DNA of 64,000 nucleotides from Rhododendron vialii (Eukaryota > Streptophyta > Magnoliopsida > Ericales > Ericaceae). Below the pieces are notes generated by a model, which was given only the letters and a program-made list of their open reading frames with translations, was not told where the DNA came from and searched no databases. The stretch spans positions 8,752,001-8,816,000 of the forward strand of contig NC_080558.1 of NCBI RefSeq assembly GCF_030253575.1, written 5' to 3'. The position numbers and the translations under genes are program-made. This document shows positions 1,676-47,499 of this stretch, piece after piece. Every line of letters starts with the position of its first letter. Positions within the stretch are counted from its first letter, which is position 1.

Positions 1676-2023
1676 ATGGGTCTAAGAAAGCTTTTTGTTG
1701 GTGTGCAAGTCCTTTTGATCATCTCCATCATTCTCTTGGCTTTCGAGGTGGCTGCCAGGGAACTTCTCCAACAATATCCGAGCCCTCTAAATCCTTGTAA
1801 GTTTACCATGTTTATTTACTTTAGTTTTTGTACAGCCGACTGTTCGGATCATTTTTACGTGTACCTAGGGATGACAAATGAACCGAGCTTTTCGTTTAAT
1901 TGTTAATTTACTTGAATTAAACATTTTTAAGCTTTTGTTTTTGTTCAAACAGATGATCATAAGATGGAGAGGGAGCTCGCTGGTTCGGGCACTTTGGATA
2001 AACCATGGCCCACCAATGTTTAA
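1676..2023 (+). CDS. Small secreted peptide precursor, copy 1 (two exons)
   Basis: Exons are 1676-1796 and 1953-2023, joined through a phase-1 GT-AG intron (donor GTAAGT, acceptor TTCAAACAG); the product is 63 aa. Residues 1-27 form a hydrophobic signal peptide starting MGLRKLFVGVQ, followed by A-A-R-E-L. Exon 2 opens with DHKMEREL and ends with the tail LDKPWPTNV. The start is the first ATG after a TATAAAA box at 1594. Copy 3 at 9274 is nearly identical in coding, intron and flanking sequence, so the two are recent duplicates. The protein has no cysteines, so it is not a defensin-like peptide. Secretion follows from the signal peptide; a role as a peptide-hormone precursor is inference from size, architecture and the conserved tail. 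I do not recognise the family. Confidence 0.7.
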
Positions 2024-2214
2024 ATTCAGTGATTTTATCTCACGAATAGAAGACGAAGAGGTTGGCGTGCTTGCTGTAGAAGATGACCTGATTTTCGAAT
2101 TTGTATCTCTTTACTGCAAACTATTCCTTTTCTTTTTTGAAATTACTCTCCTATATTGATTAAAAAGTATGAATAACGTTGTTTGTATATTGTTGAGAAT
2201 TGTCGGGAAGTTTT

Positions 2215-2570
2215 TTTTTTTTTTTGAACAGCAAAATTTTTTTATTAATCAAATGTAAATGGTTACAATGATTAAACGGGACAAGAGAGAGACATCACGA
2301 CAAGAGGATGACATCCCAACTATGTTGGCACCCCATCCCATGACGATCATATGCCACTCGAGACCCAAGAGCGATTACAAGTTGGCAAGAAAACCAACCA
2401 AAATCATATGTCGGGAAGTATGGTTTAGTCCAATTCCACCATTGGGGTTGATAGTACTTCAACAGATTGTGATGTTACTCTATTTAATTTTTTTTAACAG
2501 CGAAAGAGAATTTTATTAATCTCGAAAAATAAGAACAGAGATTAAAAGTGTGGCAAGGTGCCAACCAAAT
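2215..2570 (-). mobile_element. LINE-type 3' tails, flank of peptide copy 1
   Basis: Two T-rich starts (2209 and 2489), each followed by a TTTATTAAT-type block, are minus-strand LINE 3' ends. The same pair is at 9812-10160 beside copy 3, so they were duplicated with the gene. Confidence 0.5.
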
Positions 2571-3618
2571 ATCGCTCCTCAATATTAATGTAGGTCCCGA
2601 GACAAAAGCGGCGCTACATTATACAAAGGGTGGCCATATGTATTAGAAAAGTGAATTGACAATAAGCTTTTGCTTAAAACATATATATAGTCCAAGACCG
2701 GTCTACCAAAATAAGGTTATAAGTGCCAATGGGAGGTTTGGATTTACAGTATTTCACGAGTTGAGATTTGGGTAGAATTCTTTAATGAAATAGCGTTTGT
2801 CTCAACGGGTTTATCACCAAGTTTTCTTAATGACCATCCTTAGAAGAAATTTTAGAGCCGTCACTGTCCCGAAATGCAAAAGGTGCCTATCATCCGTAGA
2901 AGTATAATGATTATTTTTCATAACATAACAAACAATTTATCATTACCCCAAACTAAGCCTTATTATAAACGCTTAAAATACAATGCATTTTATCTCACTT
3001 AAACAATTAAAAGCTAGAGCAAAACAAAGATGGTCATCTGTTTTGACTCTTGCCGATCAAAAAATCTTCTTTTACTCTTTGTATTTTCCCATTTTGATGA
3101 GACGAGTCTCAGTACGACTGGTATAACTCGTGTATATTGAATGAAATAACCTCTCTCTTTTTTAAAGTTTAAGATTTCAACGAAAGTGGGCGCTTGGACG
3201 ATGTAAAAATAGAAGAGACTCTCTTCAGTCTCTCAAAGGGACGGGACGGTCCATTCCCTCCATTTGTGGCCCTTCTCGGATTCACTTTAATAATCAAGAT
3301 CATTCATGTTTAGGACCTTTGTCTAGTCTGGTACTTAAGGCACAGCAAAAATTATATTGATTGGATATTGCAAAATTTCAAAACATCGATCTCTAATTAA
3401 CTTGAAGAAAAATATTGCAATACATCGGAAACTTAAATTTCTTAACAAACGTGTTAATTCCAAAAGCACATTAAACAATATCCGGTCCACATTATTTTCA
3501 AGGTGGTTATTTTTCTCAACTAAACTTAGGAAATGAACAATCTTAATCATCGAAATGAGCTCGAGAAAGATCAACAATATATAGGCTGAACAGAACAATG
3601 GAGACTCTTAACTCCACG

Positions 3619-3639
3619 GGGGGGGGGGGGGGGGGGGGG
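3619..3639. repeat. Poly-G run
   Basis: About 20 consecutive G at 3619-3639 at the end of unit U1; possibly a G-quadruplex or a sequencing-sensitive site. Confidence 0.85.
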
Positions 3640-3822
3640 TGTTGTTTGGTCAAGTGGCACAAAATTATACTACCTCCCTTAGAGATACTCTAAGTGGGTT
3701 GAATTAGGTAACTCTGGAGTGGGTGGATACCGCGGATTTGAATGATCGAGTTTGCATATCTAAGGTCAAGTAATCACACATGCATGTAATTAAGGATCCC
3801 AATATACGATTGCGAAACTCTT

Positions 3823-4317
3823 AGAGCGTCTCCAAACCATCTACAAAGGACCAAAACTCCAAAAGAGCGAATTGATGTGACAAAATGGAGAATTGGAAGG
3901 CTCCAAATCATAACCATTTTGGGCCTCCAAAATGGAGACTGAAGTTTGAGTTCCATATATGGAAACTTTCTCAGAAAATGGATTTATGTAAATTGCAAAT
4001 AGCTCAATGTACCTATAGATTCGATCGATGTCCGAAAAATGATACCGTACGCGTTCAAAAGGTACCGACAATATAGCTTCAGAATGCGACCATCTTCGAT
4101 ATATTGAAATCTATCCCAAGAAAAAACTACAGATTTGGAGGGGAACTTGTGGTTTTAAAAAGAAATGAATGTGTATTTGAAAAATCTTGGAGAATTGGGA
4201 ATATTAGAGAGTGTGTGTGTAAATAGTGTCATGCTCCAAACAGTACCCTTTACAAACAAATTATGTCTTTTTGATTATTCAAAATGAAGAAAGAGTGAGA
4301 GATGGGTTGGAGATTCT
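3823..4317. mobile_element. Degenerate Tourist-like MITE
   Basis: The left end AGAGCGTCTCCAAACC and right end GGGTTGGAGATTCTCT are inverted repeats of the same class as 45111-45471. The TSD is not clear, so boundaries are approximate. Confidence 0.45.
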
Positions 4318-4349
4318 CTACAGCTGGATATCTTGTCATCGATTCCACT

Positions 4350-4465
4350 CCGGCGGCGTTGAACCATCAAAAAGTCCAAGTCTTGTTGGGAATGAAGACA
4401 ATTGAATTGGTAGAAAAAGGATGCTAGTCCTAGCCTGTTTTGACAGTAAAAGGAGAAATACCCTA
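4350..4465 (+). pseudogene. Orphan promoter relic of the peptide gene family
   Basis: The exact box AAAAGTCCAAGTCTTG (4370-4385) sits in a stretch that matches the promoters of copies 1-3, including GGCGGCGTT before it and GTCCTAGCCTGTTTT after it. The TATA position is degraded to CAGTAAAAGG and no signal-peptide exon follows. It looks like a sixth unit that lost its gene. Confidence 0.5.
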
Positions 4466-4759
4466 TACTCAGTGGCGGTCATGACTCATGAGATTGTGGA
4501 GAACATTATTATTATTATTTTTGTGGAAAGCAAGCTTGTGAAGGATATCTTTTCAAAGTTGGCCTAATCCATACTCCATATATATAAGTCTTCTGAATCA
4601 AAAATATTATAGTCGATTTTGGAGGATCGAGTTGATTCCAAACTCCATAAAAGTCTTCTGAGGTTTCAAATTGCAATCACTTGTGTTTCTTTAGTCAATT
4701 CAATGCATATATAGGGCAACCTAAACCTCAACGGCCACCACTATATAACAAGAAGATAC

Positions 4760-4763
<4 letters not shown>

Positions 4764-4799
<36 letters not shown>
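4764..4799. repeat. (GA)n microsatellite
   Basis: An 18-unit GA run between two imperfect copies of a ~170-bp sequence (4560-4740 and 4860-5030, both containing AGTCTTCT...TTTCAAA and ending near CATAGGG). Confidence 0.85.
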
Positions 4800-4804
<5 letters not shown>

Positions 4805-5299
4805 TCTTGGCACACTGCCCCCCGTATTATATGTATAAACGTATGGTTGTTTAGGTATATATTGACTATTGATACAATGGACGGTCCACTCAATTTGGAC
4901 GATCAAGTTGATTTCAAAACACAAGGAATTGAAACCCCATAAGTCTTCTCCAGTTTCAAAAATTTCAATCACGCGGTTTTCTTTGGTTTGGTGTATCCTA
5001 TGCATAGGGTGCCCAACGAAGACAGGAAAAGGTGTGACAAAGTCAAAAAAAATAAAATAGATTTTCTAGGTTTTTTTTTTACTTTATGATAGGCGCTGAA
5101 AATCACCCATTTAATCCTTCTAATTTATGTCTTGTCGGTCCGTTTACATTGTTACTTAACGCGTTTAGTGTTTTATGGTGTATGCAGGCCTCGGAGATCA
5201 ATGGGTGCAAAAAAAGGTGCAATTTGGCAAGTCTTACGGAGTTTTACCGCAAAGATGGGAATTGATTGTCTACGGCATCTGTGTGAATTTTGGTCTCGG

Positions 5300-6450
5300 G
5301 AAACCAATATCATCTGAAATAAAATCACAAATTGCAGTGGAGTATTGAATTACGTCAAGCCGACGGTCCAGGTGTATGGAATCCTAATTAATTAGAATGC
5401 ATCAATTTGGATTTAGTAGGAATCCCGAGCCGAGGAATTAAACTCATGGATTAATATGGAAAATGCCAAAATAGGAGAGTTTAAGATAGAAAAGAATTCT
5501 AACTCTTAATACAGTAAGTGATTGACTAAGGAAGGGAATTCTATTACCTATTCTCGGAACGCTTATAAAAGGTCATATTGTATAAACGGGGGGACGACGT
5601 TTTCAGAGGGGATTTTTGTCGAAGAACAGAGAATAGGGCTACGCATAAACAGGGCTCCAGCTTCCATGGCCGGCTAACTCCATTGTATAGGGGGAAGATG
5701 AAACTTCCCATCAAGTAACTCTATTTTATGTATGGGTTTTAGGTTTATTATTCGGATCAATTGTATAACTAAGAACCCTTTCCGTTTCAATTGAATGGAA
5801 TGATTTTGATGGTTTTAATCTATTGAGTATTTGTATGCATGCTTTCAAATACGAGTTATATAATGGTTTTCATCGATTGTGGTTGGAGTTCTGAGATAGA
5901 TTATACTCGTAAGACGGGCCGTGCCGTTAGGCGGCTAGATCGTACTTCTGAGACGGTCCGTGCTATGGGATAATCTATACCTTTTAACAACTCAATTATT
6001 TTCTAGATGATTATTGCTAGGGTTTGCAAGCCGTAGTAATAATCCCTTCTGATTCGAATAATTAATCTTACCTATGCATGTTGGAGTTATGCGGTCGAGG
6101 TGGATTCGAACCCTAGATTTTCTCTCCAATCGTTACAAACTTTCCATTTAATTATTTCTCTTAGTTTAATAAATTCTCCAAATTCAAACAACCAAACTTC
6201 CTTGTCCGAATTAATCTAGAAGTTAATTGAATTTGTCGTAACTCAGCCATACTGTCTCCGTCGGAACGATACTCGGTCTTGACCACTATTCTACGGAGTA
6301 GTAGTTAATTCCAAGGTTTTATAAATTTATATTTGACACGGAACGACGCGGTCACTTTATCTTGGATATTTTCAAAAATATTTGAATAAAAGTCATAATT
6401 TTTTACTTTCCGGTTCGTCTTAACGAGACGAATCAATAATCCACGAAAAT
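5300..6450 (+). mobile_element. LTR-like remnant
   Basis: TATAAAAGG at 5566 is followed by a long non-coding leader, and the stretch CCGTCGGAACGATACTCGG (6259) resembles the 3' part of plant LTRs. Boundaries, primer site and coding region are not seen; nothing else of note lies here. Confidence 0.3.
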
Positions 6451-6724
6451 TAGGAGCAAAACTAACAAACGGGAAAAAAATTTAAATAAAAACAAAACAA
6501 GAAAAAATCCAATTAAAAAGCTAAGCCCTTAGCAGAATTAGTATTGAAAAATAGAAAAATGACAGAAAACTGGGTCATACTTTGCATACTCATGTGTCAA
6601 ATCCACATCCATTTTAGAACTGCCCCTTGTTGCAGGTAATGGCCCTCTGCTTGGACTTCTCTTTCAATTTCGTTTCCACTTCCTTATTTTAAATCGGAGG
6701 ACTGTTCATCTTGTGAACTCAGTA

Positions 6725-6960
6725 GCCTTAGGGGTTGGCATGGTGGTAAATGAGAGTACTTGAGAGTCTAGTCCCACTTAGAGTTTTCGATTCGAAATAT
6801 TTTAGGAGTTATCAACTCGTATGGGATTAGTTAAAACGAGGCTTTATTCTAGTTTCAAACAGACCCCGCAAATAAACAGTTTAATTGGTCGCTCAATGAT
6901 TAGCCGATCCAGAAGCGTATAATTAATTTGTCTAGACACTGAGAAATACAAATGAAAAAA
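6725..6960 (+). mobile_element. SINE-like fragment
   Basis: GGGGTTGGCATGGTGGTAAA (A-box region) and TTTCGATTCGAAAT (B-box region) at tRNA-like spacing, with an A-rich right end. No TSD resolved. Confidence 0.45.
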
Positions 6961-7423
6961 CAATCCCGTAAACCCACTATAAAAACTCTTTACAAACTTA
7001 GATTGATTCGAAAGTCGTACGTCCCTGATCTAATAACATTGATCTTCTTCTTCTTCTTTTTTATAGGCAAAAATGTTTTTATTAAGAAACTTTGACAAAT
7101 GAGGTACATCATTCTCTAACATTGATCTTTACACACTATAAGTTCCATTTCCTAAACATCATTCTCGCAGTCCACTTTTTCTCAAGATGAAGCTTATATT
7201 AGATGGCTACGATTATCGAATCAGAGTGAGATTTTCTAATGCTGATTACACACTATACCGACGGCATCTACAAATCAGATATTTGAGTTATACGAATGGG
7301 ATGAGCTCCATGCGGTATGAATGAATCCTTCATTTCAAATTAAGAATCTGAGAGAATCTTTTAATTAAAATAATGTTATATACCTCATGAGTCATGTCCG
7401 GAGTTTAACTCTGGCGTTGACCC

Positions 7424-7509
7424 AAAAGTCCAAGTCTTGTTGGGGCCAAAGGCATTAAATTAGTAGTAGAAAATGAATACCAATCCTTTCCCCTTTTTGG
7501 CTATAAAAA
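7424..7509 (+). promoter_or_regulatory. Promoter of peptide copy 2
   Basis: The exact box AAAAGTCCAAGTCTTG is at 7424-7439, preceded by a W-box-like TTGACC, and TATAAAA starts at 7502, 47 bp before the ATG. W-boxes are known WRKY-factor sites; a role here is not shown. Confidence 0.6.
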
Positions 7510-7548
7510 GGGTGAACCATAACGCCCTTTCCTTATACAGAGAGAAAA

Positions 7549-8320
7549 ATGGCTTCAAGTAAGCTTTTTGTTGTTTTGCAAGTCATTTTGATCTCTATCA
7601 TTCTCCTCCTGGCTTTTCAGGTGGCTGCAAGAGAATTGGTCGAGACTTCTAGTGCTTTAAATCCTAGTAAGTTTACGTATTTGAAGATTAGTAGAGAGGC
7701 GCGTAAACTGGTCCAAACACTTTATTATTTAAAAAAATTAATGAAAGTTTAAGTAGTTGAGAAACTGTCTTGGTGGAAAACTTAGAATTTTGCTCTCTCG
7801 ATCATAGTTTAAAACCTCCTCAGTGATATTGGCTGTATTTGAATCGTAAATTTATACATGTTTTTCCATACAAATATGAAAAGAAATGGATTCATATATT
7901 TCTTCATCTACTTTGGAATTCATTAGTGAAGGTTACCCTACTCTCTAGTTCCACTGCACTGAAGGAATCAATCACAGACGTGGGTAATGTTCTCGTACCT
8001 TCAAAACTAGTGAACAAAATCAGACTCGTGTTTAAAGTCATTTATATTTGTTATATTCTCGTTCCTTACAAGACAACTTATGTTTGATTGAATTTATATT
8101 TGTTTTGTAAAAAACTAAAAATAATCTGTTCTTCTTTCCAAAAATTCACGGCATGAGGCCAAGAAATACGTCATGATTAATCATGGCCATTAATTACTAA
8201 ATTACAATTCATAATATTGTGTGACTGACAAGCATTTGTATTGTTCAAACAGATCATAAGATGGAGAGGGAACTTGTTAACTCGGATGATCCTTGGGGCC
8301 ACCACCCTCGCCATGGATGA
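7549..8320 (+). CDS. Small secreted peptide precursor, copy 2 (two exons)
   Basis: Exons are 7549-7666 and 8253-8320, phase-1 intron with donor GTAAGT and acceptor TTCAAACAG; 61 aa. The signal peptide begins MASSKLFVVLQV and runs to AFQVAAREL. Exon 2 opens with HKMERELVNS and ends DDPWGHHPRHG, so the D-D-P-W core is followed by a His-rich end. The exon-2 start matches copy 1 (K-M-E-R-E-L) while the DDPWGHH tail matches copy 4, making this copy a bridge that shows all five belong to one family. A TATA box lies at 7502. The 586-bp intron holds no recognisable gene. Function unknown; a secreted signalling peptide is an inference. Confidence 0.7.
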
Positions 8321-8351
8321 TTTTGTCTCAAAATTATTAAAAGCTTAATTT

Positions 8352-8460
8352 GTGCCAAAGAGGTTGGCATGGTGGACAAGATTTCCTGATGTTCACGTTC
8401 GAATCTCGCTACTGTATTGTACTATTTTCCCTTTTATTGTAAAAAAAAAAGTAACATAAT
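8352..8460 (+). mobile_element. SINE-like fragment
   Basis: AGAGGTTGGCATGGTGGACA (A box) and GTTCGAATCTC (B box) are followed by an A run at 8440. It lies just after peptide copy 2, and part of it is tandemly repeated at 8485-8600. Confidence 0.6.
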
Positions 8461-9140: not shown

Positions 9141-9200
9141 AAAAGTCCAAGTCTTGCTAGAAAATGAATCCAAGTCCTAGCCTGTTTTTGGCCTATAAAA
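9141..9200 (+). promoter_or_regulatory. Promoter of peptide copy 3
   Basis: The exact box AAAAGTCCAAGTCTTG lies at 9141-9156 and TATAAAA at 9194-9200, in the same spacing as copy 1. Confidence 0.6.
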
Positions 9201-9273
9201 GGTGAACTGAACCCCCCTCCCTTTGCACCATTCAAATTGGTAGCACTTCTGTTTTCCTTAGGGGTTAAAAAAA

Positions 9274-9615
9274 ATGGGTCCAAGAAAGCCTTTTGTTGGT
9301 GTGCAAGTCCTTTTGATCATCTCCATCATTCTCTTGGCTTTCGAGGTGGCTGCCAGGGAACTTGTCCAACAATATCCGATCCCTCTAAATCCTTGTAAGT
9401 TTACCATGTTTATTTACTTTAGTTTTTGTACAACCGACTGTTCGGATCATTTTTACGTGTACCTAAGGATGACAAATAAACCAAGCTTTTTGTTTATTAA
9501 TTTACTTGAATTAAACATGTGTTATGCTTTTGTTCAAACAGATCATGATCATAAGATGGAGAGGGAGCTCGCTAGTTCGGGCGCTTTGGATAAACCATGG
9601 CCCACCGATCCTTAA
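9274..9615 (+). CDS. Small secreted peptide precursor, copy 3 (two exons)
   Basis: Exons are 9274-9394 and 9542-9615 (phase-1 intron, GTAAGT donor, TTCAAACAG acceptor); 64 aa. It is a near-duplicate of copy 1: same signal peptide core, same V-A-A-R-E-L, same tail type (LDKPWPTDP). Exon 2 has one extra codon at its start, so the mature region is H-D-H-K-M-E-R-E-L rather than D-H-K-M-E-R-E-L. The frame is open throughout, and most differences from copy 1 are substitutions, which suggests both copies remain coding. The downstream flank has gained a solo LTR (10283-10890) absent from copy 1. Confidence 0.7.
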   Translation: MGPRKPFVGVQVLLIISIILLAFEVAARELVQQYPIPLNPCKFTMFIYFSFCTTDCSDHFYVYLRMTNKPSFLFINLLELNMCYAFVQTDHDHKMERELASSGALDKPWPTDP

Positions 9616-9811
9616 ATTCAGTGATATTATCTCACGAATAGAAAGACGAAGAGGTTGGCGTGCTTGCTCCTGAAGATGACCTGATTTTCGAATTTGTATC
9701 TCTTTACTGCAAACTATTCCTTTTCTTTTTTGAAATTATTCTCTTATATTGATCATAGAAAATAAAAAGTATGAATAACGTTGTTTGTATATCGTTGAGA
9801 ATTGTTGGGAA

Positions 9812-16375: not shown

Positions 16376-17289
16376 GTCGATCACGTTAATAAGACTCTAC
16401 GTGTTTAATTACTTGTTCCGTTGTTATTTCTAATTATGTGTGCTTCTGTGGTTATGGATATCATGCATACATTGGGGTGAGGATAGTTTTGTGTTGTTCT
16501 ATTGGGTTTTCACAAACTCATGGTAGTGCGGTATATTCAACGCCAGGTGCAGGCAAGGATATAGAGTATTCTGAAGACATTTCTATAGCAGCTGAACACA
16601 AGGTCGAATTAGCCGATCGAGCCATATATGGCTGTACCAGTAGATTAGTTGTTGGCTCTGTGTCTTTGAGCACTTTATATTTGAAAATTTGTAATAAATG
16701 CACTTTTCAACTTTATTCAGTAAAGTAATATTTTAATTACGTCTGTAATAACCGGAACTGTAATTTGTAATAAAAGGTGCGACAATTTGTAATAAATTCG
16801 GTTTGTTACAAAATTAATTTCATCTCTTCCGGAATAAGAGGCTCCTCATCAGGACTAGTGCATGGGTTTGAGTCTCATAGGTAGTTGTGGGCTGCTATTT
16901 TTGCTTTTCTATATTTTTCAAGCAATAATTGGAAAAAAATAAATTATCTAATGAAATTGCAGTGAAATTCTACTTACCACAAAAAATTGTAGTGAAATCT
17001 TGTATAAATAACTTCAATTGTAACACTATCGTTTGTTGTTTCTAGCTTTATGAGGTTGTAACTTGTAGCATTCTTGGACCAACTGCCCTATAAAAGTGAA
17101 TAACCATGTGTGACAATCTGCGTGCTATTAATATACAAAGTTTTGTTTCGATTTTAATTGAGTTCCTAAATTAGCAATTAAACAGCGAGGTTGGGCCTCC
17201 GAATGATTCGATTCATTGAGCCGAATACAGAGAGATCAAAAATCGATCATGTCCCGCGTGCGCATAAGTGTAAACTAGAGGCTGGGGCA

Positions 17290-19432: not shown

Positions 19433-20782
19433 ATGGCTCTGAAAATGTTTTTTGTACTTTGGAAAGTCATTTTGATCTTTACCCTTGTTTTTGCTTTGGA
19501 GGTGGCTGCAAGGGAACTGTTCGAGACTTCAAATTCCCATGTCCCTCGTAAGTTTGCTTCTCCTTTAGCTTCTCATTTGTTGGAGAGATATTCTTACCAA
19601 ATACTTTCTCCGTCTCATTTTAAATGTTCCTTGCAAAAAATCCACTACAAGAAAAATAGTTATTCCCGGCATTTTTATTACCGGCATTTTAATTAATGCC
19701 GGAAAAGCCATTATTACCGGCATTTCAAGAAATGCCGAAAAAAAATAATCAATACCGGCATTTGTTTAAAAAAATGCCGGCAAAAGTTGATTTTTCCGCC
19801 AAAAATAATACCATTATACTATTACCGGCATTTGTTGACACGTGGCGCCCATGTGGCATTTTGTCTTATAAGGTATAGTTTTTCCCGGCATTTGTACAAA
19901 TGCTGCAAATGAGTCCAACTATTCCTGGCATTTATAGAGATCTTTCCTGGCATTTGTACTTTTAACGACACACTCCTAGACGGCATTTGTAATAAATGCC
20001 GGTAATACTCTTTACCGGCATTTTTTTAACTTTTAGCGGCATTTATGAAATGCCGGAAAAAGCAAAATTTCTTGTAGTGATCGTGCATTTTTAAATCCCC
20101 AAAAAATATATTTTTGTGTATTTTTTTTTTTTTTTTGTATTTTTACACCCAATTAAAAATGTGACAAAGGGAGTACATAATAAGGTTTTTTTTATAAAAC
20201 AAAATGCTAAATAAGTAGCAAAATACACTTTTAAATCTAATTTTTACAATATCTGCTCGAGATACTCTTATTTGTCATTCACTTGATCTGAAAACAATTC
20301 CCAGGGATATGAAGGGCTCGAGCTCTATCGTGGGCGTCTGTGGTTCAGAACTATGGACACCCTTTGAACCCTCTGTGGAATAACTTACTAACTACTCCTA
20401 ATCCCCGTTGATCCGCTTGACAAAAAAAAAACTCAATCTTATTACTTTTGAATAGAAATTCTTAACATGTACATATATACTATGATTTCATAACATCAAC
20501 CGAATTCATGACATTAATTTATGTGTTATGAGTTTTTTTTGTCTCGAGGTCATGAATTTTCATAGAGCTAATATGAATTTCTATGCAAATTTATTATTAA
20601 TTTTTGTACGTATGCTTTAAAAGAAAAGGTCACTGAGTTTATCTAAAGCTTAAAGGCAATTTTTTTTTTTTTTTGCCCCTAAAGATTGCCATTGTTAACA
20701 TGTCATTTGTCTCGTTTCAACAGATAAGATGCCTATGAAGCTCGCGAAGAGACAGGATGATCCCTGGGGCCACCACATATAG
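19433..20782 (+). CDS. Small secreted peptide precursor, copy 4 (two exons, TE-filled intron)
   Basis: Exons are 19433-19547 and 20724-20782, phase-1 intron with donor GTAAGT and acceptor TTTCAACAG; 57 aa. The signal peptide starts MALKMFFVLWKV and ends EVAAREL. The exon-2 product is HKMPMKLAKRQDDPWGHHI, carrying a K-R dibasic pair directly before QDDPWGHH; such pairs are typical proprotein cleavage points, suggesting release of a 9-residue C-terminal peptide. The intron is 1176 bp because a Stowaway-like MITE inserted and was itself split by a CACTA element. The splice sites are untouched, so splicing could still be normal. Family unrecognised. Confidence 0.65.
19604..20173. mobile_element. 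Stowaway-like MITE split by the CACTA element
   Basis: Outer halves 19604-19642 and 20080-20173 have matching ends (CTTTCTCCGTCTCATTTT and, inverted, CTCCCTTTGTCACATTTTT) next to TA dinucleotides. The CACTA element inserted into this older MITE. Confidence 0.7.
19643..20079. mobile_element. CACTA non-autonomous element in the intron of peptide copy 4
   Basis: TIRs are CACTACAAGAAAAAT and ATTTCTTGTAGTG, with the 3-bp TSD ATC at 19640-19642 and 20080-20082. The interior carries more than ten CCGGCATTT motifs in both orientations, typical subterminal repeats of CACTA elements. 437 bp, no transposase. Confidence 0.9.
20295..20432 (+). mobile_element. SINE fragment related to 21705-21875
   Basis: CTCTGTGGAATAACTTACTA and GGTTCAGAACTATGG resemble the 3' half of the SINE at 21705, followed by an A run at 20423. 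It lies in the intron of peptide copy 4. Confidence 0.45.
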
Positions 20783-32454: not shown

Positions 32455-33615
32455 CTACTTCGCAAGATCCAATGTTTCATTATACAACTTCAATAGCTCC
32501 GGGGCTTCTTCCATCTTATAGCTCAAAACCTTCTTCCAGAACTGCTTTTCAGAAAAATTTAGCCATGTACTCAAGCTGATACCATTAGTCTTGATTAAAC
32601 CTTGCAACAACAAAGCTTTATAAACTGCACTCCTCGGAACAATCCTCTTCTCCAAGATTAGTTGTATAATTTTTGGTCTTCTTGCAACCAACGAAGATTC
32701 CCAACCCATTTTTTTAACAAGAAAATCCATCACGCGGTTGATCTTATCCTGTGATGCAATCATACAATTTGGATGCTTCTTAAAAGCAACAAGAATCTCG
32801 TCCTGGGTCCAACCCCACTTCTTGTAAACCTCAACCTTCTTCTCCCATGTAGATTTACTCATCCCTGTTAACACACGAATGGCTGACATAAACTCCATTT
32901 GCGAAGGATTAAAACCCATCCTTTTAACTTCATCCACACAAATCCTAAACCGATTGCTGCCTACAGCAAATGCTCTAGGTCGTCTCATCAACAAAAGCCC
33001 AATATTGGCATTGGGAACACCTACTTCTCGCAGAATTTCAATATTTGGTATAACATGACTTTGATAATCAAAAAAACAAAACCAAGCACAATGTCACAAT
33101 GTCTAATAAAAGCAAGCGCTTTCTCTTCGGATTGAAGAAAATTACCATAGAAATTAAGGAATAATTGAGTTTTCCAAGCTGCGTTTCAAGATGAATTGTG
33201 ACATAGACGTTAATCTGGCAATATCTGTGATCGAAAGGCCCTTAGATTTGAGAAACTCATGCTTGGGCAAAAGGGACTTTTGGGGATCACGTATTATCAC
33301 AGGAGGGTACTTTCTAATGGCACTGGAGATCTGGGTTTGGGTGAATCCATGGTTCCTGAAGAATGCCAAGACTGAGTCAGGCTTATCTGGAGTCTCAAAT
33401 TTGACATACTTAGATGCTGAGAGAGCTTTTTCTGGAGACAACCCACACTAGTTTATGAGGTATGTGACCGTGAACGAGTGCTGATTTGAAGATTTATCCA
33501 TGGGTTTGAGGGATGTGGAAAAAGGGTGGGTTAGATGATGGCAATAGAAAACATAGGTTGGAGAAGCTTTAGCAGCAGATATTCCATGGCGTGATTTGCA
33601 GAAAAACTTCAACAT
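32455..33615 (-). pseudogene. mTERF-family protein pseudogene
   Basis: Three fragments in order on the minus strand resemble a plant organellar mTERF: 33615-33448 (from MLKFFCKS, through HPFSTSLKP, to SFTVTYLIN), 33441-33154 (GLSPEKALSASKYVKFETP) and 32994-32455 (MRRPRAFAVG to the C-terminus). Fragments 1 and 2 are in the same frame, separated only by a TAG where a sense codon is expected before CGLSPEKA. After the E-N-S-I-I-P block the frame is lost through at least two indels (33000-33155), although recognisable pieces such as Q-S-H-V-I-P-N-I-E-I-L persist in a shifted frame. Members bind organellar nucleic acids through repeated mTERF helices; this copy cannot make a full protein. Sequence upstream to about 34020 may be old 5' UTR. 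Confidence 0.8.
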
Positions 33616-34715: not shown

Positions 34716-35749
34716 TATGAGAAGAAATGGGCTTTTGAGTGGCAGTGCTGATGGTGAAGAAGGGAGCAATATCGGGTCCAACGGAAGGAACTCTGGCAAA
34801 GTGTTTGGTACTACCTTGTCAAGGTAAGATTCACCACTTTGTCCAGAAATGCTTTCATGATATTCTTCCTGTTAAAGATGCGCTAGTCAGGAGACATCTT
34901 GCGAATGATGTGTTGTGCCCTCTGTGCAAGGAGGATAGAGAATCAGTTGTTCATTTGTTTGTTAGATGTCCCATTGCACAAGTGGTGTGGAGGTTGTCCC
35001 CGTTGGGGGTTGAACATGTCAACTGTCTTAAGGGAGGATATTATGTCTTGGTGGGGTAATATGCTGGAAAGATGGTAAAACATGAAAGAGAGAATAAAGA
35101 GGTTTGGGCTGTTGCAGGTTCAATTATATGGAAAATCTGGAAGTGCAGAAACGATTAGGTTTTCAATGGCAAATCGTGCTGCCCGGACATGGCGTGTACG
35201 CAAGCAATTTTAGAAGCAAGTGAATTTCTAGCAGCTAACGAGCCTGTGCGAAGCAAGCCAGGCACATGTGGGTGGTAATCTGCATGGGTGGGAAAAGCCA
35301 GCTTTTGGGTGGGTGAAGCTGAATTTTGATTGGGGGTCTTGGCAGCCATATCAAAGAGAGTGGATTCCATGGGGATTGTGGCTAGGGAGCATGATGGAAG
35401 GTTTAGAGTTAGAGCGGCAAGGGCTGTTCATCTTGGGTATGTGATGAGCCCTCTGGCTCTTGAGGCAATATTGGCGGCAAGGGAGTGCTTGGTTATCACT
35501 AAGGAGATTGGGCACACATTGAAGGTGATTCTTTTCAGGTGGTCAATATGATTAATGACAGTGAGGACTCTTTCTCCTCGGTAAGGGTTCTTATAGCAGA
35601 TGTGAAATGTTGATGCGAGACTTTGTTGATGTGAGAGTGAGTTTTGTTAGGAGGAATGGCAATTCTTTGTTTCGTTTGACATTCTGCTGTATTTTGTTTG
35701 ACATTCTGTTGTCAATAAAATTACTCCTAAACTTTGGCAAAAAAAAAAA
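34716..35749 (+). mobile_element. 5'-truncated LINE with zf-RVT and RNase H remnants (copy 1)
   Basis: The frame near 34800-35035 reads CQGKIHHFVQKCFHDILPVK, then C-P-L-C and H-L-F-V-R-C-P: the zf-RVT zinc-binding region found downstream of reverse transcriptase in plant L1-type LINEs. Further on, G-I-V-A-R-E-H-D-G-R-F and S-P-L-A-L-E-A-I-L-A-A-R resemble the RNase H-like domain. It ends in CAATAAAATTACTCC and an A-run at 35740. Several frameshifts and stops make it non-functional. A second copy at 57028 shows it was duplicated with the receptor gene. Confidence 0.75.
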
Positions 35750-36490: not shown

Positions 36491-39400
36491 CTAACTAAGC
36501 ATGGGCAGCTCATCAACACCCTCTCTAACAGATTTTACCAACTCTGGACTATCTCTGCCAGCTCCCGCGTTCATCTCAAGCACCTGAGATGCATCATACA
36601 TGGTAGGCCTAGAATGTGGTTCGACGCGCAAGCACCAGACTGCTAGATTCAAAATGGAATCCAATTCGTCTTGTAGCTTCTGACTAGTAGGAGGCGGAAG
36701 ACGAGGATCCAACACATCTGCCAATTGTATGCGTTCATTGTCCACGGATGAGTATAGGTTCGAACTGAGTTCTCCCGGATGCAATCCCATCAAAATCTCT
36801 AGTGTCAAAACACCGAAGCTATACACGTCACATTTCTCTGTCACTGCCATTGTGTACGATAATTCTGGCCATGCCAAGGAAAAAAAAAAAAACACACCAA
36901 GAATGTCTCATGTTAGTTCTCACTCACGAATCAAACTAGCCAAGCAAATAAAGGATGGCCTTTCGAGCACTAAATAAAGTTACCTGGAGCAATGTATCCG
37001 AACGTGCCTGCAACCGCGCTCCAATTTGAAGAATCGGGCTTCAAAAACCTTGCCGTGCCAAAATCTGAGACATGAGCCTCCATTTCCGAGTCCAACAGAA
37101 CATTCTTGCTCGATATGTCCCGATGAATTATGGAAGGCGCGCAGTTGTGATGCAGGTAAGATAAAGCGTGAGCCACCCCTTTAACTACGTTCACTCTCTT
37201 ACTCCAGTCCAACTCCTTGGCATCTTTATCTCTCCTCAAAACATCCGCCAAGCTTCCTCTCTCCATGTACTCACAAACCAAAAAAGTGTGCTTTTCATGG
37301 TAACAGAAGCCATAGAGTTTCACGATGTTCCGGTGCCTTATTTCTGTCAGCGTGGCTACCTCATTCGCAAAACTCTTGATCTCCCCAATCTCTGAGCCTT
37401 CATTCATGAATAGCTTTTTAACTGCTACTACCTGTTGAGGATTTACACAGAATATAAGATAGTTATCAATCGAAATGATAGATAGAGAAAATTTATTTAA
37501 AACTTCCAAAAGTACCTGCCCACTTGGTAAGTTAACTTTGTAGATTCTGGCCGATCCTCCCTGTCCAATGCAGTATGCATCGTCAAAATTGTCTGTAGCG
37601 CGGACGATATCTCCATACACAATTCTTCCACGGAAATTCCGGATCAAAAAGATGTTTTCTCCCTTTACCACATCTTCTTTCTGGCCTTTCCGGTTACTTT
37701 TTCGATGAAGCACGATGGCTCCAACAAGCAGAAGCAAGAGAAACAACGAGCCTAACGAGGCAGAAACTGCAATAATGATCAACCGCGAGTTTCCTTTATT
37801 TTCCTTACCTCCACCCCCAGACACTGAGTTGTTACATGCTGTCAATCCTTGGTTTGGATAACCGCATAGGTTCTTGTTATGAGAAAACGCTTCGGACGGA
37901 GACTTATTGAAAACCTTGGAGTCAGGCAGAGGACCCTCCAGTTCATTGTACGACAAATCGATGGTTGACAAGCTGAGCATTCCACTGAACGAATCCGGTA
38001 TAGAACCGGAGAGAGAGTTGTGGGAGAGGTTTAAAGCTTCTAGGCTAATCAGCTTCCCAAGTTGAGGCGAAATCTCTCCAGTGAGAGAGTTGTTACTAAG
38101 ATCAAGCAGAATTTGTATAGATACAAGATTACCAATCTGATATGGAATGCTCCCATTCAAGTGGTTTGTACTCAAACTTAGAAAGATTAATCTTGAGATG
38201 TCTCCAATTTGATATGGAATAGGTCCGCTTAGCATGTTCATTGAGAGATCAAGAGAAGCCAAATTGGACAGTCCCCCGATTTCTAACGGTATTCGACCAA
38301 AAATGTTGTTGTCACTCAAGTTTAACAATGATAATTTCGACAGTTGTCCAACTTGGGCAGGAATTTCGCCGTAAATCTTGTTGGAGGAAAGGTCCAGCTC
38401 TACTAATTGGTTCAATTGGGAAATTTCCACGGGGATTTCACCTTCTATAGAATTTCCGCCCAAATTCAGCAGTGTCAAGTTACTGCATTCTCCCCATTTG
38501 GGTGAAATTTTCCCTTGTAAATTGTTGTGGCTCAAATCGATGTAAGTGAGATTTGGGTACAATCCAAAATCTTGATCAAGATTTCCGGTCAGTTGGTTAT
38601 ATTCAAGCCGGACTCTGCGCAAGGATGTGCAGTTTTTTAGGCTTACCGGGATTGGACCGGTGAAATTATTGTACCCAGCGCTGAAATTTTGTAGCTTTCG
38701 ACCTCGACACACTTGTGGAGGTAATTGACCACTCAAGTTGTTAGAAAGTACGTGAAAACGTACCAGTGATGAAAGATTTCCGATTTCTTCCGGTACTGAA
38801 CCGGATAAGTAGTTTGAATACAAGCTCAAATCGGTTAACTTGGTCAAGGTGCCGAAACTTTTAGGAATCGGGCCAGTTAATCGGTTTCGGTTAAGATGCA
38901 GGAAAGTCAACTTACTCAAATTACCCAAAGATTGAGGAATTGGGCCAGAAAATCTGCTACCATCTAAAGCCAAGATTGTCAAATCTTCCAAATTACCTAT
39001 CTCTGGCGGGAGGGGACCACTGAGCGAAGTATTTTGGAAGAGTAGCTTTTGGAGGCTAAGCAGGCCGGTTTTAGCCTGACTTGACCCACGGTCAGGAAAT
39101 AACCGCGGGTCAAGCTGCCCTGTTATGGCGTTTCGCCCAAAATCTAGCTCGACAACCTTGGTGAGATTCGCGACAGAGAGAGGGATTGTGCCCGAGAAAG
39201 AGTTGGTGGAGAGATCAAGATACACGAGGTTTGAGAGTAGGCCGATGTTGGTGGGTATGGCACCGGTTAGTTGATTGACTTTGAGGTCGAGACGGAGGAG
39301 AAGAGGGAAATATGAGAAGTTTAAATGATCAAGAGTACCTGGTAATCCCGTGTAGGCAAGGTTCATTCCAGTTACATTTCCTGCAGCGTTGCATGAAATT

Positions 39401-39612
39401 CCTCGCCAGTTGCATGGGCTTGAAGCTGAAGAGTTACCATTTGTTTGGTTGAAAATCCATGAGCTGACAATTGTTTGGTTGCGTAGGCTTTGTTTCCACA
39501 GGAGAAGCGCTTCGACTTCGGGATTTTGTGGTGGTTGAGCGGTGGAGGGAGGTGCGAAAACCACCAGAACGACTGAGAGAGCCAGAGCAAGGTAGTTGAA
39601 AAGGTTTGGCAT
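36491..39612 (-). CDS. LRR receptor-like kinase, MIK2-like (copy 1)
   Basis: Three exons: 39612-37516, 37431-36984 and 36864-36491, joined by GT-AG introns of 84 and 119 bp; 972 aa, full length for this family. Residues 1-26 are a signal peptide ending STAQ. An LRR N-terminal cap follows with paired cysteines (C67, C74), then about twenty 24-residue LRRs with many N-x-S/T sites, a transmembrane helix near 611-636, and a Ser/Thr kinase. Kinase features seen are glycine loop I-G-Q-G-G-S-A near 682, lysine V-A-V-K at 704, H-R-D at 802-804, D-F-G at 822-824 and A-P-E at 847-849, so an active RD kinase is expected. The nearest family I know is MDIS1-interacting receptor-like kinase 2-like, plasma-membrane receptors for secreted peptides. 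The frame also stays open through intron 1, but the spliced form aligns with copy 2. Confidence 0.92.
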
Positions 39613-42106: not shown

Positions 42107-42451
42107 TAGGCATATCAATGAATCGGATTCAATCCGAATTCGATAATGTCAATCCGGTAATTCAAATCCGGTAATCCAAATACGGATCGGATTAAATCCG
42201 TTATCAATCCGATCTGAACTTTGTTTTTTTTTAATTTTTTTTACAAAAAAAAACTGTAAATTTTTTATTTTGAAAAATATATATGTTTAAGAAGTTGTAT
42301 TTTTATTTTAAATCTTTTTTGGAAAATAATTTTTTTTTGCTACAATTTTTTAAGTAAAAAAGTTTTCGGATTCGGATTACCACTATCAAATTCGAGTCTT
42401 ATTGGATTTGGATTTATCGGATTCGGATCGAATCCGGTCCATTGACGCCTA
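42107..42451. mobile_element. Small hAT-type element, 345 bp
   Basis: Ends are TAGGCATATCAATG and CATTGACGCCTA, with an imperfect 8-bp TSD (CCCATAAC and CCTATGAC). The interior is made of AATCCG/CGGATT repeats. Paralogous flanks at 13030, 15010 and 51240 are uninterrupted. Confidence 0.65.
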
Positions 42452-42599
42452 CCTATGACATAGCGCGATTATGCCCTTTAAAAAATATATTTTAAGACAC
42501 AAATATCCAAACTATTGAGGCAAGATTACTTGTCAAAAATGGACAGAAACATAGGAGTTTGGTCAAAGGTATTCCTATAACATAGGAGTTCTCATTATG

Positions 42600-43017
42600 G
42601 GGACGTATCTCAACCAATTCAGTTGGGACCAGTTTGGTCCAGTTAAAACTGATTGTGGCCTTCCCCGAGCTCACAAAAATAATCGGAACCGTTCATTTTT
42701 TAGAGCACGTTGAAAACATTGACCACACTGAAAATCACGTTGATCAGATATAGTTTGACATGATTTAGAAATGCATGCATTAATTTTGTAAGAATAAAAG
42801 TGTGCAACACCAGATTGCAACCCTTTGACACAATTATTTGAAGATTAATGCATTTCGAAAACATAAAAAACGATTTCCGATCAATGTAATTTTTGGTGTG
42901 GTCAACATTCTAGACGAGCTCTAAAAAATGAACGGTTCCGATCATTGTTGGGCCCACAATCAATCTTAACTGGACCAAACTAGTCTCAACCCAAATTGGT
43001 TGGGATACAACCCCTCG
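42600..43017. mobile_element. Mutator-type foldback MITE, 418 bp
   Basis: TSD CATTATG (42593-42599, 43018-43024). Inverted arms share TTTGGTCCAGTTAA and AACCGTTCATTTTTTAGAGC. The empty paralogous sites are near 15170 and 51310. Confidence 0.72.
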
Positions 43018-44545
43018 CATTATGACCTGACTTCATTTTCACTATCAGGATTCAAATTTGTTATATACATGCAAATCAGTAAGAATAAATTACTCCAACT
43101 CTTAGTGACAAGCAGGGGCGGATGTAGAACTTTATGTCACTGGAGTCAAGTCTTATATCAGAATTGTTATGGGCACCAACGATGAATATACTGGCACGCG
43201 AGTCTCACAACGGATTCCGTACGGATAATCCGAGCCGAATATGAATGAAAAATTAGAAGATTGAATTGAGCACCTACATATATTCAACTACGCTAATTTT
43301 TCAAGGGCCCACTCCGTTTTTTTTTTTTTTTTTGAAATTATTGAACAGCTCGGATTATCTATGCGGGATCTGAAGTGGAACCTGCATGCCACTGTACACT
43401 ATCGATGTCTTTAGATTTCGGTCTTATATGTAGGAATTTGTTTCATGAGTTCTCAGAGTCGGCTTATAGCCAAGGCGAGGGAAGCGAGCGCTTCGGGCCT
43501 CCGAAAAAAATTAAAAACGAGGGCTCCCAAATTTTTAGAATTCCTATATATATATATGGTCCACAAAAAATTGCACTAGACTTCTTTACACAAAATAGGC
43601 CCAATTAAAATTTAGGAGCCACAAAATAGGCCCAATTGAGATTTAGGAGCCATAAAATAAGCCCAAATTGTGGAATTATTCATTAGAAACACTAATGCAG
43701 TAAAAAAAAAAAAAAAAGAAAATAACTTAAGGGTTGGTAGGAACTAGCAAGGAAGATATAGCCAATCAAAAAAGATCAAAAAAGAAAAAGAAGATATAGC
43801 CGATCATAAGGAGCAAGTACGGCAGGAACTAGAAACGCTTCATGCTTGAGGAGTCGAAGGGGAGGGAAGACAACAACCAACGACTGTGGACGGAAAATAC
43901 TTGCACAAGGAATTCCTTGAGGCCTCTCTTTTACTATCTCCAACTCTCCACCTCTACCAAGTAAGTTTTTTATTATCTTAACCAGTTGACCTAATTGGTA
44001 AAATTTGTAGATCACTTTTATATGAAAAATATAGGGTAGCCTCATTCAAGAGGTTTGCTTCCGACCTTCAAAACTTATGAGCCGGCCCTGGAGCTCTAAT
44101 GGCATGACTATTAATTTCCTTTACTTATACTTTAAAATAGGGTGGTGATGGTGGTGATAATGTCAAAATTATTTTTGTTTGTGCCAAAACTCCAGTACAT
44201 TAAAGTCTTGTATACTACACATGGTGCAAGGTTTTTGTGCACTAGAGTTTTGGCCCCAACAAAAACAGTTTTAACATTATCATTTCCTTTAAAATACTTG
44301 CAATATGGAGTAATTTCTATATTTAATTTATCGTTCTAAATTATTAATTGTGAAATTTGTTAAGGGTGTCATTCGAAAAAATTCACTCCGGGCTCTCGAA
44401 AAGCTTGTAAAACTTGGAGAAAAATATATCTCTATGATACAAAATCTACTTTGACTTCGGTTTTGCCCTTGATTAATTCAGGTTTAGAGTTTCCAAATTG
44501 GAGTCCATGTATCATGTTTCTTCTTTTTTGTTTTGCTTTCTTAAA

Positions 44546-44550
<5 letters not shown>

Positions 44551-44596
<46 letters not shown>

Positions 44597-44644
44597 TGGG
44601 AGTGGGTATATGTACTTGAACGTGGATCCAATCAAATCACAAGT

Positions 44645-44678
<34 letters not shown>
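44551..44678. repeat. Twin (GA)n microsatellites
   Basis: GA runs at 44551-44593 and 44649-44678. Apparent frames on both strands only translate the repeat (R-E-R-E or S-L-S-L). Confidence 0.9.
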
Positions 44679-44683
<5 letters not shown>

Positions 44684-45110
44684 CAGATGTAAGAATTTTT
44701 TGAGGTCAAGGATTGTAATATTGTTGAGATACTTGAACAAAGTATAACATCTCTTGGGCCAAATTTACCAATATAGCTCAAAACTTTATAGATTTTCTGG
44801 GGTAATTTTCAACTCAGTGGGTCACCTATCTCCACTTGCCATTACTTGCGTCCACCCCTGGTGACAAGAATAAACTTTTACCTGCTAGAGTCCTTTTTTT
44901 TTTTTTAACAAATTTGAACCATTAAAAATACTTTTCAGTCCAACATCAAATTGCAAAGAAGCCATATCCTTCTCATTAATGCTTCACCAAGTTAAGAAAA
45001 GCAAAAATCATACGAGATTTAAATACTTCGATTTAGTTATTTTGTATTTGCGATGTGTAAGACCACCTCCAACAAAGACCACCATCCAGGAACAAGGGAT
45101 ATATAGCTTA

Positions 45111-45471
45111 GAGCATCTCTAACTTTGACTTCAAACTGGGGATGTCAATTTTTTTTGAAGGCTGATGTGGCATTTTGGCATCTCTAATTTGACATCAGAA
45201 CCTACTCTCCAACCCTTATGTCAAATCCTATTTATTTGACATCAAATTATCCCTTTCCAACCCTTATGTCAAAATACAAATAGTCATTTTTTGAAATTTG
45301 GCAAGCAAGGTGTAGGTAGTTAAAGTTAGCATGCTTTCTTCCCTTTCATCCATGTCAAAAGCCGCGTAGGATTTGGCCCAAAAAAGGCATCTGGGTTGGT
45401 TTGTCAATTAGTGTCAAATATTACCGTTACAAGCTCCACATCAAATTTGACATCTCCTATTGGAGATGCTC
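45111..45471. mobile_element. Tourist/Harbinger-type MITE
   Basis: 361 bp with ends GAGCATCTCTAAC and TTGGAGATGCTC and a TTA TSD (45108-45110, 45472-45474). The paralogous flank at 51660-51690 has no insertion. Confidence 0.8.
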
Positions 45472-45971
45472 TTACATCCAAGTTCACATCTATTCTTACG
45501 TCCTTTCTCACATTTGAAGGTGGTGCCCACAAAACTATCGAGATGGTCCTGCCATGACTTGTAAGAGATGACGTAAGAATGGATGTAAATTAAATTCTTC
45601 TCGTGGCCGAAGAAGAATTTTCTTTAACCTGTTTTTCTTTATCAGCGAATTTTCTTTAACATTAGTTCAGCTCTTATTATACCATTTGACCACTTCCACC
45701 ATGACCCTTGCCTCAGAAAGATTCGGGGACGGTGGTGGGCCGAAGGTACTGTGCACAATGGTGGGACGAAGGTACTATGCACGGTGCTGTGTTTAATTTC
45801 AACCGTTCAAAAGTGTTTTGAATAGTCTAGATTTTAAAATTTCTTTCCCGAAGCATTTTTTTTAAATTCAGGCCAATAATTGTCGAGACAGACGGCCTGA
45901 ATGTGGCACAACACTGTGCATCACGGAAGGGCCAGCACCACCCGCGTCCAGGACGACTTTTGGTAGTCTTT

Positions 45972-46020
45972 GAAGTCTTCTTGTGGCCCAAGTTTCCTTA
46001 GTATTATTTGGGCTATAAAA
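45972..46020 (+). promoter_or_regulatory. Promoter of peptide copy 5
   Basis: It carries the TTCTTGTGGCCCA block shared with copy 4, and TATAAAA at 46014-46020, 42 bp before the ATG. The AAAAGTCCAAG box is not recognisable here. A foldback repeat (about 45735-45935) lies just upstream. Confidence 0.5.
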
Positions 46021-46061
46021 AGAGATGAGCCCTATATTCCCTGTATTACGCTTGAAGGAAA

Positions 46062-47499
46062 ATGGCTTTAAAAATGCTTTCTGTCGTTTGGAAAGTCCTT
46101 TTGTTTTGTACCCTTCTCTTGGCTTTTCAGGTGGCTGCTAGGGAACTGCTCCAAACTTCCCCTGTCCCTGGTGAGTTTTCCCTTCTTATCTGTTTGTTTA
46201 CTTGATCCGAAAATAACAGAAAATGGTAATATACCAATGCCATCTATATTTGAGTAGTGTATACGATATGCACCCTTCAATTATGGATAGGATTTTATGA
46301 TACTTTGATGCGAACTCGTAACTTATTCTTGAATTCGCAACTTTGATTACAAATATATAATATTCACGTAAAATTGAAAATTCGAGAAAATAACCTTGAC
46401 TTTATAAATTTTTACAGACGTGTATGTATTTTTTTACATAGGCTAATTATATATGAATTTAAAGCGATTAATTTGAAAATTGCATACCATACACCTTCGA
46501 ATAAGGGATCTGTATTGTAGCAATTTCAAGAACAATTCTCGGTAATTTCAGCCACAATGGTGATATTTTTGTCCCATTTGGATCGAATATGACATTTTTC
46601 GATACTTTTTACATACTCTCTCCATCCAGATTTAATAGTTTTTTTTTAAAATTCGTGTCATTTTTCAATCAATTATATCTTCCAATTTATAATGTTTACA
46701 TAATTTTGAAAATATTGTACTATAGAACTAATAGAGATCTATCAAACAAGATCGATATTCGATATAAAATTCATTATAGATTCAAAGATATAACCCATTT
46801 TTTAGCCGGTTAAAATAGAATTAGGAATAATTAAATCCGGACAGAGGGAGTACTTATTCGGTTTATCTCGTCCAAAAAGAAACCAGAATAATAACCGAAA
46901 CATGGACCATATTTTGAAGATAAAACAAAAATCGTCGCTGACTGCCCAATGGCCCCGATTGGATGCATGCATAGGGAGGGGGATTATTTATGCGCCCGGA
47001 TAAGGGACCATTCGTAATGTATGCCTTGGTTTGGCAGCCCAAAAGGATATACCCGGACTATTTATGGTTGGGACTATTTAATCTGATTGAAGGTGAAAAA
47101 ATTATTGACAGCTCTCGAGTTGTCCACATTTAGTCCACGCAGATGAGGCACTCCTCATACCCCCTCCCCCACCTTATCTTTTCATTTCAACAACAAAACA
47201 ACCCTATGAAGATAAGAAAACGAAGCACAAACAATGTCAAAATTTGATTAGTCTTTTTTTCTTCTTTCTTTCGTGACTTTTTTTTTTTTATCAGCTTCTT
47301 TATTGACTTTTTAAATGGGGTAGTTTCTGAAAAATAATTTTACGGTTCAATAGAAAAGATTATTATTATTATTATTATTTTGATTTGCTAAAGAAATGCC
47401 ATTATTGACATGCCTCAATTGTCTTGTTCAACAGAGACAGCACCCTCACCCACGAAGAAATTGGGCAAACGCGATGACCCGTGGCCCGTGGAGCCATAA
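46062..47499 (+). CDS. Small secreted peptide precursor, copy 5 (two exons)
   Basis: Exons are 46062-46170 and 47435-47499, phase-1 intron with donor GTGAGT and acceptor TTCAACAG; 57 aa. The signal peptide starts MALKMLSVVWKV, closest to copy 4, and ends FQVAAREL. Exon 2 reads ETAPSPTKKLGKRDDPWPVEP: a proline-rich spacer, then K-K-L-G-K-R, then the D-D-P-W core. The K-R pair again sits just before the core, as in copy 4. The intron contains an intact Stowaway MITE (46616-46850). This copy is about 26 kb from the other four and carries the same flanking sequences, so it moved as part of a larger duplicated block. Confidence 0.65.
46616..46850. mobile_element. Stowaway MITE in the intron of peptide copy 5
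   Basis: 235 bp, ends CTCTCTCCATCCAGATTT and AATCCGGACAGAGGGAG, flanked by TA on both sides (46614-46615, 46851-46852). Confidence 0.82.

Follow-up and report, generated by a model that had tools for sequence, protein, structure and literature searches.

Tandemly repeated genes for putative secreted peptides with a GRP-like first exon, located among MIK2-type receptor kinases in Rhododendron vialii

What kind of locus is formed by very small two-exon genes that share a signal peptide and, beyond it, hardly more than a D-x-P-W motif? Such genes were found in a stretch of 64,000 bp of the Rhododendron vialii genome (contig NC_080558.1, here called C2, bp 8752001-8816000; hereafter the window), in which a first-pass annotation had described a family of five members and proposed it as a candidate for an undescribed system. 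Searches of the genome (532.6 Mb, 13 contigs) revealed that the five genes do not stand alone: they belong to an array of at least 65 copies of the first exon, which extends over 1.42 Mb of C2 (7,401,703-8,821,543), is entirely on the + strand and also contains leucine-rich repeat (LRR) receptor kinases of the MIK2 type. We give a probability of about 0.5 to the explanation that this is a lineage-specific, fast-changing tandem family of secreted peptides of the phytocytokine type, whose ancestor was a GRP gene and whose candidate partners are the receptors of the same cluster.

Gene models and extent of the array

The five window genes (g1-g5) were rebuilt from the window sequence, and all of them consist of an exon 1 that starts with ATG, a phase-1 GT-AG intron whose position is shared, and a short exon 2. 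Exon 1 of g1 (window positions 1676-1796) encodes the signal peptide with VAAREL and is followed by the donor GTAAGT at 1797; its exon 2 (1953-2023) encodes the tail LDKPWPTNV. The exons of g2 run from 7549-7666 and 8253-8320 (tail SDDPWGHHPRHG), those of g3 from 9274-9394 and 9542-9615 (tail LDKPWPTDP), those of g4 from 19433-19547 and 20724-20782 (tail KRQDDPWGHHI) and those of g5, which has a GTGAGT donor, from 46062-46170 and 47435-47499 (tail GKRDDPWPVEP). All are on the + strand and every tail is followed by a stop codon. The products are 63, 61, 64, 57 and 57 aa long, respectively, and the signal peptide encoded by exon 1 ends in VAAREL in all five. The models therefore agree with the first-pass annotation in their intactness, their splice coordinates, the combination of VAAREL with a phase-1 intron at one position and the product size of 57-64 aa. 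Two of its other statements hold only in part: the products were called cysteine-free, which is true of g1-g4, whereas g5 has one Cys inside the signal peptide, and the introns were called very diverged, which does not apply to all of them, as g1 and g3 are approximately 90% identical across the gene.

A DNA search of the genome with g1 gave at least 42 matches (40 of the 65 candidates were scored at first look), and protein searches with g2 and g5 gave at least 84 and at least 58 matches, respectively, all of these counts being lower bounds. Every match reported falls in the 7.40-8.83 Mb interval of C2 and is on the + strand; whole-genome searches with g1, g2 and g5 reported no family copy outside the array. 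The list of first exons was picked by eye from these matches, which were merged at 60 bases; this gave 64 places, and 65 after the addition of 7417399 (copies are given by their position on C2). Three degenerate copies (7414731, 7440544 and 7551697) were left out of both the 65 copies and the 36 that were read. The window lies at the right-hand end of the array, with one further exon 1 beyond it, at 8,821,543.

Reading of 36 of the 65 copies yielded 26 intact spliced models, the five window genes included, with precursors of 52-69 aa. Intactness, which had been claimed for the five genes, thus holds for these and, array-wide, for 26 of the 36 copies. Among the copies not counted as intact, the frame is broken in 7417399 and 7817130, the acceptor is not AG in 7567037 and 8586607, and the ATG is absent at the aligned place in 7529695, 7745596, 8152566, 8276898 and 8569900, some of which have a downstream ATG; the last copy, 7468049, has the tail HYNPW.

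The proximal promoter can be aligned across the family, and 25 of the 26 models have a CTATA(A/T)A box between -47 and -83. An enrichment of W-boxes in the promoters (20 versus 10.8 expected) was dropped as evidence, because the copies share ancestry and shuffled sequences reached 23. The window also contains two relics on the + strand. Family promoter fragments, 78-88% identical, are present at 4343-4463, with no family gene found behind them, and a g5-type 3' region, 88-92% identical, is present at 16812-17032, where no family gene was found either.

Likeness of the first exon to GRP genes

In a first Pfam scan of the window genes, GRP (PF07172) matched the signal-peptide part of g2 with 17.4 bits, against a curated cut-off of 30; g1, g3, g4 and g5 gave no GRP match. 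When the 26 intact members were compared with Pfam, GRP was the most-matched family, with 19 of them at an E-value of 1 or less. Its best match had an E-value of 0.00023, which would correspond to approximately 22 bits if scaled from g2 and would then be below the cut-off.

A genome search for GRP genes produced 53 PF07172 rows, without any array copy among them. GRP genes form arrays at C6:34.4-34.7 Mb and C3:5.61-5.68 Mb; a further two form a pair at C2:10.68-10.70 Mb. Of five GRP loci that were read, four have an exon 1 of 106-118 nt, a phase-1 donor and a glycine-rich exon 2, and the fifth gave no model; two loci also permit a phase-1 donor at 130. These genes encode secreted glycine-rich proteins of the PF07172 type, which we take to be those labelled class II. 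The array family resembles them in the form of the signal peptide (VAARELVET, versus VTARDLVET in GRP), in the phase-1 intron and its distance from the ATG (109-121 nt, versus 106-118 nt in GRP) and in its tandem arrangement, which GRP genes show on C6 and C3. It differs from them in exon 2, which is short and not glycine-rich. Scored against a GRP exon-1 profile, built from five sequences including one (L053) that leaves frame after the signal peptide, the family exon 1s had a median of 15.4 bits (3.6-29.0; n = 26). This median was reached by none of 520 shuffles that kept the n, h and c regions (maximum 15.2). The simplest account of the gene structure is that exon 1 and the intron share their origin with GRP genes, and that exon 2 would be new or changed.

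Two further families, Sar8.2 (11 of 26) and Defensin_propep (6 of 26), matched weakly at E up to 1, in the first member in the signal-peptide part. Such matches would be expected of antimicrobial peptides from a GRP or Sar8.2-like precursor. However, the net charge of exon 2 (K+R minus D+E) ranges from -3 to +2 and is zero or negative in 21 of the 26 models, and the exon-2 parts contain a single Cys, in the extended tail of 7515086. A cationic antimicrobial peptide was rejected on the charge of exon 2, and we regard antimicrobial peptides of this derivation as highly improbable.

The GRP genes at C2:10.6846 and 10.6998 Mb are situated among MIK2-type kinases (10.665, 10.692 and 10.734 Mb; region 10.665-10.97 Mb), so the linkage of GRP-type genes to such kinases may predate the new tail. 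A second case of this linkage, at C4:16.74-16.80 Mb, was rejected, since the C4 exon is proline-rich and does not belong to the array family. Within this region, the locus at C4:16802600-16803900 (L054) has a GRP-like signal peptide followed by an in-frame run of prolines.

The second exon: motif, selection and known peptides

Outside exon 1, the only columns that are invariant in g1-g5 are the D, P and W of D-x-P-W. The first-pass annotation gave the core as DDPW or DKPW; across the array it is D-x-P. Both D and P are present in all 26 intact models, a figure that is biased upward because exon 2 was partly sought by a motif pattern. The x is D in 12 models, N in 4, K in 4, Y in 3, H in 2 and T in 1, and the motif is followed by W in 21 models, by G in three, and by H and I in one model each. 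Further downstream, an N is found in 19 and a P in 23 of the 26 models. Several tails read D-x-P-W-(SK)-G-H-N-P-R-H-G and three read D-[DKY]-P-G-x-Y-N-P-P. Among the tails are DDPWGHHPRH in g2 and the DDPWSKGHNPRH type. Most tails end in NP or HG. The peptide parts encoded by exon 2 are short and close to neutral, Pro, Asn and His being located near their C-terminus; none of the 26 tails has a glycine-rich stretch.

In three genes (8169479, 8298847 and 8586607) a possible second exon of the DDPW type, preceded by an AG acceptor, was seen 3.3-4.6 kb behind exon 1, at 8174084, 8302134 and 8590613, respectively. The same genes also carry a nearer exon 2 with a different tail, the acceptor of which is not AG in 8586607. 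The two candidate second exons could possibly reflect alternative splicing.

Selection on the peptide had been proposed from the intactness of the reading frames. We calculated pN/pS over 13 disjoint pairs with 95% bootstrap intervals, and obtained 0.60 (0.43-0.80) for exon 1, 0.77 (0.50-1.43) for exon 2 and 0.71 (0.51-0.96) for the whole gene. The proposal is thus supported for the whole gene and for exon 1, and not for the tail alone, where the interval spans 1. The corrected ratio over all pairs was 0.56 in exon 1; in exon 2, which has a high pS (0.55), it was 0.38. The value below 1 for the whole gene points to mild purifying selection on the gene as a whole.

These properties can also be explained by ordinary GRP-derived wall or defence peptides that are secreted and take no part in receptor signalling. 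The family would then be a degenerate GRP subfamily that has lost its glycines and keeps exon 2 only loosely. The weak constraint on exon 2 agrees with this, as do the GRP-like exon 1 and intron phase and the 10 of 36 read copies that are disrupted or motif-less; the neighbouring kinases may likewise have been inherited, since GRP genes at C2:10.68 and 10.70 Mb are also among MIK2-type kinases. On the other hand, D-x-P is kept throughout the intact models while adjacent columns vary (with exon 2 partly found by motif), the tails lack a glycine-rich stretch and the proximal promoters are kept. We consider this alternative possible, though rather unlikely.

No described family with these tails was matched in Pfam, PDB or the open literature, and within these searches the designation as undescribed is supported, for a large array with a GRP-like exon 1 instead of five separate genes. 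The best Pfam E-value for the 26 members was the 0.00023 of GRP, no relative was found in PDB (best E 0.18), and neither was a clear match to any characterised family. Six tail strings did not occur in any of 5.39 million open-access papers, and text searches for linked ligand-receptor clusters and for tandem secreted peptides with SCOOP gave no match. A text search that included DDPW listed five of 14,991 papers, and the string occurs twice in one of them, on coffeetides (PMC10538209).

Among known systems, SCOOPs and their receptor MIK2 are placed in Brassicaceae/Brassicales, with SxS as key, in sections of two papers (PMC8448819, PMC11331138), and sections of the latter report PROSCOOPs and MIK2 only from Brassicales. 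The array family shares with SCOOPs the small secreted precursors, the divergent tails and the tandem expansion, and has MIK2-type kinases nearby; it differs in that ligand-like genes and kinases share one locus. Membership was rejected, as SxS is present in 2 of the 26 tails against a shuffle mean of 1.08 (the count is of the SxS form, SxT being a minority form).

The Tyr-sulfated peptides RGF/GLV, PSY and CIF have a conserved DY and end in HN. The array tails are similar in beginning at a D-x step, and 7 of the 26 contain the PSY/RGF-like pattern [G/Y]-(x)-[N/H]-P-(P)-[R/K]-H (shuffle maximum 1; the pattern is post hoc and the copies are related). They differ from these peptides in ending mostly in NP or HG, not HN, and in having precursors of 52-69 aa. 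DY occurs in 3 of the 26 tails (shuffle mean 0.97, maximum 4), and membership of RGF/PSY/CIF was rejected on this count and on the partial pattern. The CLE dodecapeptide is R-x-V-P-x-G-P-N-P-x-H-N, and P-x-G-x-[N/D]-P-x-[H/N] fits 4 of the 26 tails (shuffle maximum 1; again post hoc and from related copies). With R1, V3 and the terminal N absent, a W after the P and a partial pattern in few tails, CLE membership was rejected as well.

Receptor kinases of the array and candidate ligands

Two genes of the window on which the first-pass annotation was silent encode LRR receptor kinases of 972 aa, both on the - strand and with three exons: kinase 1, MIK2-type, at 36491-39612 and kinase 2 at 58855-61971. 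Over the first 851 residues they are 89% identical, without gaps. After splicing of two short introns both are intact, with VAVKK, HRD and DFG present and with kinase matches in Pfam. The dN/dS between them is 0.21, and 0.10 in the kinase domain. In a PDB sequence comparison, MIK2 gave the best single stretch of the two shown (338 bits, residues 194-595, through the C-cap); At4g26540 had a best stretch of 258 bits, and its summed bits were higher than those of MIK2 (519 versus 501). The long ectodomain match through the C-cap, together with the kinase domain, places both proteins in the MIK2 type. Orthology to MIK2 was rejected, as the array kinases are 44-46% identical to it over a 403-aa ectodomain stretch, against the criterion of at least 60% in the relevant section of PMC8448819. 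They are referred to as MIK2-type, not MIK2, because this identity is below that of other kinases of the genome. The pocket residues of MIK2 listed in a section of PMC11331138 (D246, N268, S292, H294 and H316) lie in a part that does not align one-to-one with the window kinases. In RGFR1 an RxR motif contacts the C-terminal Asn of RGF1, according to a section of PMC6749341; both window kinases have an RxR at 333-335, which reads RVR in kinase 1, and in this they resemble RGFR1.

A genome search with the N-terminal 187 aa of the kinase, in which 150 of 2882 candidates were scored, gave at least 28 rows with E-values of 1e-20 or lower. Thirteen of these rows represent 12 places, which show 78-100% identity and all fall within C2:7.47-8.82 Mb; stops interrupt two of them, and another two give partial matches. 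The remaining 15 rows are elsewhere in the genome (39-53% identity). Among the matches listed, the subclade of the window kinases is thus found only inside the peptide array, and all 12 places are 2.7-32 kb from a peptide exon 1. This neighbourhood is suggestive of pairing, but is not proof of it. With the MIK2 ectodomain stretch as query, scoring of 103 of 2012 candidates gave at least 63 rows with E-values no higher than 1e-60, the lower-scoring rows being less certain.

The kinases at C2:7871380, 8024378 and 8790959 are near-identical (99-100% over 187 aa), and the peptide exon 1s that accompany them (7895628, 8031770 and 8798062) are likewise near-identical. These blocks may be very recent block duplications or unpurged assembly duplicates. 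Together with the disrupted copies, they would fit a largely decaying array, in which a gene that once functioned was multiplied by recent segmental duplication (in part perhaps as assembly duplicates that were not purged) and most copies are silent. Yet copies that have diverged are still intact (36% of the aligned coding bases differ between g4 and g5), the whole-gene pN/pS is below 1 and constraint on both window kinases is strong; we find such decay distinctly unlikely.

Other features of the window are two open reading frames (ORFs) with mTERF-like matches (32455-33441, - strand) and, at 34739-35059 on the + strand, an ORF that matches zf-RVT and is a relic of a retroelement. Rfam gave no match within the window at gathering scores.

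For a GRP-derived, phytocytokine-type family we infer the following course from the gene structures. The exon for the signal peptide and the phase-1 intron would come from an ancestral GRP-type gene, whose glycine-rich exon 2 would have given way to, or turned into, a short exon with an HKMEREL-like pro-region and a C-terminal tail of the form D-x-P-[W/G]-...-N-P, ending in R-H-G in some copies. The precursor would enter the secretory path, where the signal peptide would, as we read the sequence, be cut after VAA, and proteases would release a tail of approximately 8-14 residues, probably a short apoplastic signal like phytocytokines, with a putative role in immunity. For TWS1 and CIF4, PMC11756074 lists cleavage by subtilases before D and at His-Gly, and the array tails are comparable in their starting D and, in several cases, in ending in RHG, although many instead end in NP. 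Perception would most likely be by LRR receptor kinases, with the MIK2-type kinases of the array as first candidates, since their subclade was found only there.

This explanation is favoured by the location of the copies on one strand and in one stretch, by the 26 of 36 intact copies with the same architecture and a shared promoter, by the GRP-like exon 1 and the short, near-neutral exon-2 parts, and by the constraint on the window kinases (dN/dS 0.21) with 12 close kinase places within the array. Several observations weigh against it. What ties the family to GRP is the signal-peptide exon, where sequences readily converge, and unrelated Pfam families match weakly as well: Pox_LP_H2 matched 10 of the 26 members (best E 0.0042) and ETRAMP matched 4 (best E 0.003), which means that a hydrophobic N-terminus may by itself be enough to give a score. 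Eighteen further exon-2 places fetched by similarity comprised 9 with D-x-P, 3 with DDS/NDS and 6 with no usable reading; the motif P is lost in three exon-2 copies (D/N-D-S), and 7468049 reads HYNPW. The tail alone is indistinguishable from neutral or diversifying change. As for the receptors, kinases on C7 and C4 are up to 53% identical to MIK2 over the 403-aa ectodomain, against 44-46% for the array kinases, and MIK2-type kinase arrays without array-family peptides are present at C7, C10, C11, C13 and C2:9.1-9.5 Mb. The proximity of kinases and peptides may stem from a single duplicated block.

A stronger form of the same idea, which appears unlikely at present, is a self-contained ligand-receptor locus, in which SCOOP-like but unrelated, GRP-born peptides would co-expand with a private MIK2-type subclade that perceives them. 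If true, this would be a genetically linked phytocytokine system with ligands and receptors copied together, probably outside Brassicales. To our knowledge, the ligands of MIK2-type kinases outside Brassicales are largely unknown, and an array in which peptide genes are interspersed with members of a single receptor subclade offers a short list of candidate ligand-receptor pairs. The array also suggests a route to a new secreted-peptide family, in which an old signal-peptide exon is kept and the second exon is changed.

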